This document shows, in pieces, positions 57,152 through 61,106 of a DNA stretch of 64,000 nucleotides (its first letter is position 1; the number at the start of each line of letters is the position of its first letter). The stretch lies in contig NZ_JAEKIW010000001.1 in NCBI RefSeq assembly GCF_016757965.1, positions 1 to 64,000 on the forward strand. Reading direction: 5' to 3'. Under the pieces are notes generated by a model. The model was not told the DNA's origin, did no database searches, and worked only from the letters and a program-made list of their open reading frames with translations. Made by a program: the position numbers and the translations under genes. Source of the stretch: Archaeoglobus neptunius (lineage in GTDB: Archaea > Halobacteriota > Archaeoglobi > Archaeoglobales > Archaeoglobaceae).

Positions 57152-57307
57152 ATTACTCCACTTGAAAAGATTGCAAGAGATGTTGAAGACCTCAAGAAGA
57201 AGATCGATTATCTAATAGAGGTCATCGAGAGCGAAAAGAAAAAGAACCTCATCGAAGATATGATGAGAATAGAGGAAGAAGAGGAGTTTGTGGAGCTGAA
57301 ATTTTGA
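57152..57307 (+). pseudogene. RelB-like antitoxin without a normal start codon
   Basis: The frame reads ITPLEKIARDVEDLKKKIDY and continues as a charged helix ending in EEEEEFVELKF and TGA at 57305-57307. It is open from 57134 but has no ATG, GTG or TTG before the conserved part; ATT 57152 sits where the start codon of relatives would be expected. It overlaps the RelE start by TTGA. Either it uses ATT as a rare start or it has lost its start codon. The frame is thus a probable antitoxin of doubtful expression. Confidence 0.5.
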
Positions 57308-57567
57308 GATATAAAGTACTAATCAGCAAAAAAGCACTTGAGTTTATCGACTCCCTACCTGAAAAGAGTCAGGGGATAATAAAAGACAAACTTAGCAGTC
57401 TTGTTAACAGCCCATACCCCGGGAAAAGGGGAGATAAAAAGAAGCTAAAGCTTCCAAGCTACGAGTTATACAGAATGCATATTGCAAGAAGCTACACAGC
57501 TTTTTGCAGAATCTATGAAGATGAGAAAGTTGTTAAGATTCTCGACATCATGACGGTTGAAATGTAG
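57304..57567 (+). CDS. RelE/ParE-type toxin
   Basis: The 87-residue protein is a RelE-superfamily toxin, probably an mRNA interferase: MRYKVLISKKALEFIDSLPE at the start, a helix pair, then LPSYELYRMHIARSYTAFCR and VVKILDIMTVEM. Full length, with basic residues on the central strands. The start is TTG 57304, in a 4-base overlap with the antitoxin frame. If the antitoxin is not made, toxin activity would be dangerous to the cell, so it may be weak or the antitoxin may use ATT. Confidence 0.75.
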   Translation: MRYKVLISKKALEFIDSLPEKSQGIIKDKLSSLVNSPYPGKRGDKKKLKLPSYELYRMHIARSYTAFCRIYEDEKVVKILDIMTVEM

Positions 57568-58960: not shown

Positions 58961-59179
58961 ATGATGGGTGAAGCAATTGAACTTCTCCGCAGAATCGAGA
59001 ACAAGCTCGAAGAAATTGACAGAAGGCTGAGAAGAATTGAGGAAGAGCTTTTTGATGAGCTGAGTGAGGAGGAATTAAAAGAGGTTAAGGAAATCCTTGA
59101 AGCCTGTAAAACAGGAAAGATGAAGACGTATTCGCTGGAAGAACTGAAAAAGGAGCTTGGAATCGAGGATGAAGTTTGA
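58961..59179 (+). CDS. RelB-like antitoxin
   Basis: This 72-residue protein is a helical antitoxin: MMGEAIELLRRIENKLEEID, then a charged coiled coil and the C-terminal TYSLEELKKELGIEDE, which resembles the toxin-binding tail of archaeal RelB proteins. A T-rich TATA-like box lies 20-25 bases before ATG 58961; an in-frame ATG at 58925 is less likely. It overlaps the toxin start by 11 bases. It is intact, whereas the toxin is not. Confidence 0.7.
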   Translation: MMGEAIELLRRIENKLEEIDRRLRRIEEELFDELSEEELKEVKEILEACKTGKMKTYSLEELKKELGIEDEV

Positions 59180-59422
59180 AGTCAGAATATCCGATATAGC
59201 GGCTAAGGACATCAAGAAGCTTGACAAGATCACGAGGGTCAGGATATACAAAACGATCAGAAAGCTTGAAGATCCCTTTTCTCTCGACATCAAAAAGATT
59301 GAGGACCATATTTAAGGGTCAGAGTCGGTAATTTCAGAATCATCATATAAATCGATTTCGAAAACCAGATTGTATGGATTGCCAAGGTTGACAAACGGGA
59401 AAGAGTTTACGACCGCCTATAA
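59169..59422 (+). pseudogene. RelE-type toxin, broken
   Basis: The frame starts MKFEVRISDIAAKDIKKLDK and runs to IKKIEDHI followed by TAA at 59313-59315. The rest of a RelE protein continues in another phase: RVRVGNFRII, then a stop, then IDFENQIVWIAKVDKRERVY and DRL. At least one frameshift and one nonsense or small deletion (at ATATAAATC, where relatives have YEI) separate the parts. The toxin should be inactive. The antitoxin gene just before it is intact. Confidence 0.7.
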
Positions 59423-59684: not shown

Positions 59685-60284
59685 TCACTGTTTTGCGATT
59701 CGATTCAAAATCATTTTAATACGATTCAAAAGTTCTGATATATACCCAAGTGTTTCATTAATGTCTGGGAAATAGTCACTCGGGTGTGCGCACTCATTCC
59801 TTTTGCTTAGCAACCCATGTAAAACTTTCATTTCACTTTTTCTCAAAATTTCAATATCTTTTACTGCCTCTATTATCTGGTAATCTGGATACTTCTCTCT
59901 TAATTCTTCTTTGCTTGATACTTTCCAATTTGGCCTTTTTTCTTTGAGTTTTTGGAAATTCTTCAGAAGTAGCTCGTGAATGAAGTCTATAAAACCTGCC
60001 CATGCGAGCACGTGTGCTGCTCTGAAAAGCCCGTTTTCGACACATCTCAGAGCTTCTCTAAATAGCTCATCTTGTTCGAGCGATAGACCGTTTAATTCAC
60101 TATAACTTTCATTTAATTTTACAACTCGTGATTTTTCAGCACTTTCGTATATGCCGAGTATCTTATGGGCAATTATTTCAAATTTCTTCGAATTTTTAAC
60201 AAATTCCTCAATTGTGCTTATTTCATTCTGAAAGCAGATTTCTTTTAAGTGAACGAAACAATTTGTCGTATACCTCCTCATCAT
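59685..60284 (-). CDS. HEPN-like protein, partner of DUF5343 gene
   Basis: This 199-residue helical protein has the RX4-6H signature of HEPN ribonucleases in [11 protein letters not shown] (near residue 166), in the usual place before the last helix. The middle part (about 75-120) has [20 protein letters not shown] and [13 protein letters not shown], as in HEPN-type abortive infection proteins. Its start lies 62 bases inside the end of the DUF5343 gene, in another frame, and I see no later start codon; this implies tight translational coupling. RNA cleavage is inferred from the motif. Confidence 0.65.
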
Positions 60285-60822
60285 TGGTGGCTGGCAATTG
60301 AAGCTGTATGTTTATGTTAATCGCCAGACCGTGTGTTGGAAGCTTTATCGTTGGTGGTCGAGTTAACGATTTATCCATTTTTGCATTTTGAGTGACTGAT
60401 TCGGTTTCCTCAAAATCTGCTAATTCGCATAAGGCTTTGAAAGTTAAAATTATTCTGTCGATCGTATTGCTTGCAAGATTCGTCTGTGCGGCAAAAAAGT
60501 TTTTCAGCGCTTCTTTATCTTTTCTGTGTGCATCAGGATATGTATCAAAAAGTTGTTGATAAGCTCTCTTTATAGCTGATGCCATTATCTTTGGTGCAAG
60601 TTCTCTGTTACGGTAGTTATTCCATGTCTCGGTCGGAATTCCCGATGCATCTATAAATCCCAGATCTTTTAAGAGGCCTACTATAGTTCGATCATTGCTA
60701 CTTTTAAATCCTAAAGCTGCTAACCACCTTTGCGTAACTTTTTCAGGTACATTAGTTTCCTGAATTATTTTAAAGAACTTTTTCAACTTCCCAGGAACCG
60801 TGGTGTATGGGAAATTTGACAT
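60223..60822 (-). CDS. DUF5343 family protein
   Basis: The 199-residue protein begins [20 protein letters not shown] and continues with [38 protein letters not shown] and TETWNNYR, all typical of DUF5343. The first 130 residues look like tandem winged helices, which would bind DNA or a partner. The last 60 residues ([20 protein letters not shown]) form a strand-rich tail of the type seen in defence-associated regulators. It heads the two-gene operon with the HEPN-like gene. A TATA-like TTTATATTTG lies about 35 bases upstream and GGGGAT just before the ATG. Confidence 0.7.
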
Positions 60823-61010
60823 TCGAATCCCCAGTTTTTATTAGCATACAACAAATATAAATTTTACCTTACTAAACAGTTACTTGTCAGAATGGGCCCG
60901 GTTAACATTTTCGTCTTATCTCAAATATCTCAAAATTATTTCACGATCCAACATGATTAAGATGCTCAGAGGTCGCTAAATATTGTTTTTAAGAAATTTA
61001 AAATATAAGA

Positions 61011-61081
61011 TGCGGCCGCCGGGATTCGAACCCGGGCTAACGGCTCGGGAGGCCGTTGTCCTACCACTAGACTACGACCGC
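61011..61081 (-). tRNA. tRNA-Gly (CCC)
   Basis: Read on the minus strand the 71-base sequence folds as a cloverleaf: acceptor GCGGTCG with CGGCCGC (one U-G pair), D arm with GTCTAGTGGTAGGAC, anticodon stem ACGGC/GCCGT with loop CTCCCGA (anticodon CCC, Gly) and T arm CCGGGTTCGAATCCCGG. Discriminator A; CCA is not encoded. Its 3' end points to the accessory island at 56.9-60.9 kb. Confidence 0.97.
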
Positions 61082-61106
61082 ACATTTTGTTCTGAGCTGG
61101 TTAAGC

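Follow-up and report, generated by a model that had tools for sequence, protein, structure and literature searches.

A DUF5343-HEPN gene pair of Archaeoglobus neptunius as a likely variant of the candidate phage defence system PDC-M34

The closest described counterpart of the locus treated here is PDC-M34, a phage defence candidate of PADLOC-DB 2.0 whose component A is a DUF5343 protein and whose component B is a Swt1-like HEPN protein. PDC systems are described as candidates of Payne et al. (PMC11811056) that are still unpublished; those of archaea were found by guilt-by-embedding, with most of them awaiting validation (PMC12988326). In the literature searched, neither DUF5343 nor PDC-M34 is named, and no activity, toxicity or defence assay was found for any family member. 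Other described systems resemble the locus through their HEPN components, namely HEPN-MNT (MntA-HepT), likewise a two-gene operon, as well as PD-Lambda-3 and Argonaute-linked systems (Aga_HEPN in PADLOC), which use HEPN effectors of the Ymh family.

The window, i.e. the whole stretch of 64,000 nucleotides that was analysed (positions 1 to 64,000 of contig NZ_JAEKIW010000001.1), harbors a DUF5343 gene (gene 1) followed by a gene for a small helical protein (gene 2), both located where the original prediction had placed them (Table 1). That prediction knew of no described system made of these two families, which does not hold as far as the kind of system is concerned: since PADLOC already lists PDC-M34, the pair is, judging from its sequences, a variant of this candidate with a HEPN family overlooked by current models. 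Gene 1, whose DUF5343 identity is firm, matches M34A over its full length (E 2e-52), and gene 2 occupies the same position as M34B and shows a HEPN fold; no M34B model matches gene 2, however, M34B recognizing Swt1-like HEPN proteins instead. The fold of gene 2 also resembles HepT (6m6w, 7bxo), whereas its partner is DUF5343 and not an MNT nucleotidyltransferase. As family searches yielded no nucleotidyltransferase match to gene 1, no AMPylation mechanism is expected in the window pair. From the Ymh systems the pair differs in that its HEPN protein is not of the Ymh family and no Argonaute or PD-Lambda-3 A gene was found adjoining.

Table 1. Features of the DUF5343-HEPN locus and its surroundings, in window coordinates
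Feature	Position	Strand	Basis
Gene 1, DUF5343 protein (PDC-M34A family), 199 aa, first in operon	60223..60822	-	PF17278, E 4.2e-49; PADLOC PDC-M34A (PDLC04589), E 2.3e-52
DUF5343 core, residues 1-140, helices and small wing at ~57-63	60403..60822	-	AlphaFold pLDDT mostly >90, secondary structure
Gene-1 linker, residues 142-167, low conservation, disorder predicted	60322..60399	-	pLDDT <50; alignment
Tail at C-terminus of gene 1, residues 168-198 ([31 protein letters not shown]), proposed to dock HEPN	60229..60321	-	Tail profile
Gene 2, HEPN-fold protein, unnamed family, 199 aa by longest ORF	59685..60284	-	ORF; AlphaFold/Foldseek; 14 homologues
Conserved part of gene 2	59685..60221	-	Junction comparison
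RX4H HEPN motif R162-NECA-H167 of gene 2	59784..59801	-	Alignment of 14 homologues
TATA-box-like TTTATAT ahead of gene 1, probably the operon's archaeal promoter	60855..60861	-	Similar box in 5/5 archaeal loci compared
tRNA-Gly(CCC), adjoins module; 3' flank is variable site	61009..61082	-	Found in sequence
ParE-type toxin ORF	57304..57567	+	PF05016, E 7e-6
Small antitoxin-like ORF overlapping short RelE-like fragment	58961..59315	+	No family match

The pairing of both genes is real and strict. Across 84,980 genomes, a profile of five archaeal copies detected ten gene-2 loci; Archaeoglobi account for two of them, and Chloroflexota, Actinomycetota, Nitrospinota and candidate division B38 for the remaining eight. 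DUF5343 immediately precedes gene 2 in all nine loci having upstream sequence; the tenth locus lies at a contig end, as does the sole DUF5343 of that genome. Within the organism's own phylum, the gene-2 family is present in five genomes (295 searched) and DUF5343 in six (394 searched); the five make up all but one of the DUF5343 carriers, with the pairs adjacent, and in the sixth DUF5343 adjoins a HEPN_Swt1 gene (PDC-M34B, E 5e-45). A search with gene 2 alone in the same 295 genomes returned these five and one distant multidomain relative. The window's genome harbors a single DUF5343 copy. Pairwise distances of gene 1 and gene 2 correlate (r 0.76, Mantel p 0.0005). The module proposed from the window alone thus extends over archaea and bacteria, its homologues being adjacent wherever this is checkable. 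In these comparisons, L004 and L010 denote one congeneric locus (G102) and L003 and L011 one confamilial locus, within Archaeoglobi/Archaeoglobales. In G102, a metagenome-assembled genome, both genes of the pair are frameshifted, due to either assembly error or decay.

In the window, the longest ORFs of the two genes overlap by 62 bases, which had originally been read as a sign of fixed stoichiometry. The overlap as such exists; the stoichiometry reading was ruled out, since the long overlap is missing from relatives, where an ATG lies one nucleotide after the gene-1 stop (L002, L003), at the place of an ATA in the window (60219-60221). From this comparison, the overlap is probably a start-codon effect, and would otherwise be a local oddity. 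Outside Archaeoglobi, the two genes overlap by up to 26 nt or are separated by up to 12 nt. The TATA-like box before gene 1 is consistent with a single operon. Small adjacent genes kept as a stable pair in one operon, as present here, are a feature of type II toxin-antitoxin systems. A classical system of this kind would have DUF5343 as the DNA-binding antitoxin, neutralizing a HEPN toxin with its tail and repressing its own promoter, and would serve mainly to maintain mobile DNA rather than to sense viruses. The gene order fits this reading, which is nevertheless considered rather unlikely; a conserved palindromic operator or inverted repeat upstream of gene 1, for instance, was absent from five loci.

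Gene 2 is most readily described as a HEPN protein with the HEPN four-helix fold, as its predicted structure and its motif suggest. The AlphaFold2 model is a helix bundle (pLDDT 84.9), and its first eight PDB matches in Foldseek have probabilities of 0.80-1.00 at E-values of 0.17-0.63, poor E-values being usual for short helical proteins. These matches include AF_0298 and HepT (6m6w, 7bxo); some carry HEPN in their description, and the remaining ones are HEPN or HEPN-MNT proteins, so that the HEPN fold anticipated from the sequence is recovered. The RX4-6H motif noted earlier ([11 protein letters not shown], including R162-H167) is likewise borne out: in an alignment of 14 homologues, which come from Archaeoglobi, Chloroflexota, Actinomycetota and other groups, R162, N163, E164, A166, H167 and P168 are invariant (14/14; R-N-E-x-A-H-P, where x is C or A), and therefore the motif is not due to chance. 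Pfam, NCBIfam and PADLOC (the latter searched at E up to 1) gave no worthwhile match to gene 2, and no curated HEPN sequence model scored above its cut-off for the gene-2 family. The nearest one, DUF4145, which is a HEPN family, reached 21.2 bits (E 3e-4) against a cut-off of 23.1, in one homologue (L064) only. By analogy of motif and fold, gene 2 would act as an RNase. Proteins of 434-506 aa from viral contigs and one archaeon (L020-L022, L088) have at their N-terminus a relative of gene 2 (hhalign 98%), with the motifs KRNECAHA/RSKCAHPS; the archaeal one adjoins a gene resembling a DNA methylase.

The core of gene 1 is predicted to be winged-helix/HTH-like and may represent a nucleic-acid-binding part. 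A PDB fold search gave no confident structural relative of this core, its matches being weak, and searching the sequences of solved structures with gene 1 and gene 2 returned nothing of use. An HTH-like core with a disordered linker and a toxin-linked tail fits an antitoxin, although at 140 aa the core is bigger and better conserved than in typical antitoxins. A putative nucleic-acid-binding core would also suit a targeting subunit that brings the HEPN protein to particular RNA or DNA, giving constitutive immunity or RNA quality control harmless to the host. This reading is regarded as improbable: the DEAH-helicase winged-helix/ratchet matches of the core (probability 0.14) are too weak to assign RNA binding, and the full RNExAHP motif is invariant in the window family, as expected of a nuclease.

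DUF5343, as newly reported here from sequence comparison, adjoins at least four HEPN families: the gene-2 family, Swt1, Ymh and DUF4145-like proteins. At two loci (L006, L063), the partner is HEPN_Swt1 (PF18731, E 2e-12), corresponding to PDC-M34B in PADLOC. Three further loci (L035, L051, L057) encode Hypoth_Ymh after DUF5343 (E 3e-31, 1e-28 and 1e-28), a family which Anantharaman et al. 2013 (PMC3710099) include among the HEPN families. The partners at L048, L034 and L073 are DUF4145-like, the DUF4145 match exceeding the Pfam cut-off in L048 only; the assignment is least secure for L034 (E 0.014), whose partner is nevertheless 53% identical to that of L048. Their motif, GDxSAH/GNLSAH, lacks the arginine of RX4H, and RNase activity can therefore not be general across the wider partner set; such partners may only bind, in keeping with a targeting role. 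Profile-profile comparison revealed no convincing sequence link of gene 2 to the Ymh, Swt1 or DUF4145-like partners, so that they are treated as separate HEPN families.

What the paired DUF5343 proteins share beyond the core is a C-terminal tail of ~31 residues, consisting of a beta-type stretch, a proline or serine turn and an amphipathic helix. It is found in 20/20 DUF5343 ORFs that adjoin a HEPN-type gene (spacing -62 to +12 nt, or +159 nt for L004 with its frameshifts) vs 0/26 others (Fisher p 1.8e-13), for loci that are mostly from Chloroflexota and not independent, and with a profile built from some of the counted tails, neighbour presence being scored independently of it. Where the neighbours of tail-less DUF5343 genes can be named, they encode DnaE-type, stress, nuclease or transposase proteins, with no HEPN gene among them; tail-less copies in several Chloroflexota (L036, L041, L049) lie beside DnaE/PHP genes. 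A core-genome role of the bare domain is possible. That standalone DUF5343 lacking the tail adjoins housekeeping genes argues against the toxin-antitoxin reading, as the core then has a job of its own. The same neighbours, dnaE-like and universal stress genes, could suggest that the whole pair is an ordinary housekeeping or regulatory one with no link to conflict, and this is judged very improbable: those copies have neither tail nor HEPN neighbour, and paired copies are confined to few genomes (any DUF5343 in 6/394 of the phylum).

In the tree of DUF5343 cores, two deep groups are resolved (100/100). Judged by their cores, L034 and L035 belong with the window type. Their tails, in contrast, share 55-59% identity with tails of the Ymh/DUF4145 type vs 23-26% with those of the window type, and they are paired with HEPN proteins of the kinds typical of the other core group. 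A topology that keeps the window type monophyletic is rejected (AU p 0.008). Tail type, by these comparisons, tracks the HEPN partner and not the DUF5343 core, the simplest reading being a joint exchange of tail and HEPN gene; hence we infer that the tail may be the contact with the effector, and it would dock the HEPN RNase. The idea that the tail marks neighbours of Ymh-HEPN genes in general was rejected: in 17 Chloroflexota genomes that gave Ymh matches, a tail protein adjoined the match in a single case, the one paired with DUF5343. Separately, a Chloroflexota contig (L071:158-931, minus strand) encodes a 257-aa winged-helix-type protein (PF09821), not DUF5343, that bears the same C-terminal tail; it adjoins a gene identified by eye as encoding an Mrr-like nuclease, and the contig ends before the partner position.

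The window copy of the pair lies on the 3' side of the tRNA-Gly, the neighbouring tRNA having been noted correctly from the start. Synteny with four congeneric genomes is kept on the permease/tRNA side; the opposite side differs each time, without match in the window. Two of these four genomes (G112, G102) carry the module away from this tRNA-Gly site, from which it follows that the module moves as a unit. These different loci, and a copy on a viral contig, speak further against a housekeeping pair. Partner exchange, patchy spread and the variable tRNA-side location fit a toxin-antitoxin system as well, as do genes resembling TA components, namely ParE close to the window copy and, judged by eye, others around L002 and L015. 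Of two relBE-type remnants described earlier in the window, one is a ParE toxin with a Pfam match and the other (59157-59315) has none; it belongs to what is possibly a decayed TA pair.

Restriction-modification genes are located near L019 (C5 methylase, HNH) and near L073 (M.Eco57I type, viral contig), neighbours that speak for a defence operon of sensor and effector and would also suit a targeting subunit. Most gene-2 neighbourhoods (L012, L013, L014, L016) are housekeeping-like and not defence islands, and because they look ordinary the defence-island evidence is modest. DUF5343 proteins gave no hits when searched against plasmids and phages, and the DUF5343 profile found no relative on viral contigs; on these contigs, the tail profile detected one DUF5343-type pair, L073. 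There, DUF5343 and the DUF4145-like gene directly precede the Eco57I-type restriction-modification pair.

Slightly better than even, in our estimate, are the chances that the locus is one operon combining a sensor/adaptor, DUF5343, with an RNA-cleaving HEPN effector, held by the tail and triggered by infection. DUF5343 would comprise the helical winged-helix-like core, the flexible linker and the partner-specific C-terminal tail, and gene 2 would contribute the RX4H active site. The tail would bind the HEPN protein and keep the complex controlled, probably inactive, with the core binding nucleic acid or another infection cue. Once infection or other invasion disturbs the complex, the HEPN dimer would cut RNA, leading to growth stop or death. 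The original label of a candidate defence or toxin system is fair in this respect, adjacency, RX4H motif and HEPN fold all holding, with function still a matter of inference.

A partner-dependent tail suggests a mix-and-match defence or self-poisoning switch. On a wider and more tentative view, somewhat short of an even chance, DUF5343 might be a common chassis of immune modules, with a nucleic-acid-sensing core, exchangeable HEPN effectors and a docking tail swapped along with the effector. DUF5343, absent from the literature searched, is now tied to several known RNase effector families, and the ~31-residue tail offers a concrete interface. If true, tail type would predict effector type, tail swaps would rewire a sensor's effector, and PDC-M34 in PADLOC should extend to other HEPN families.
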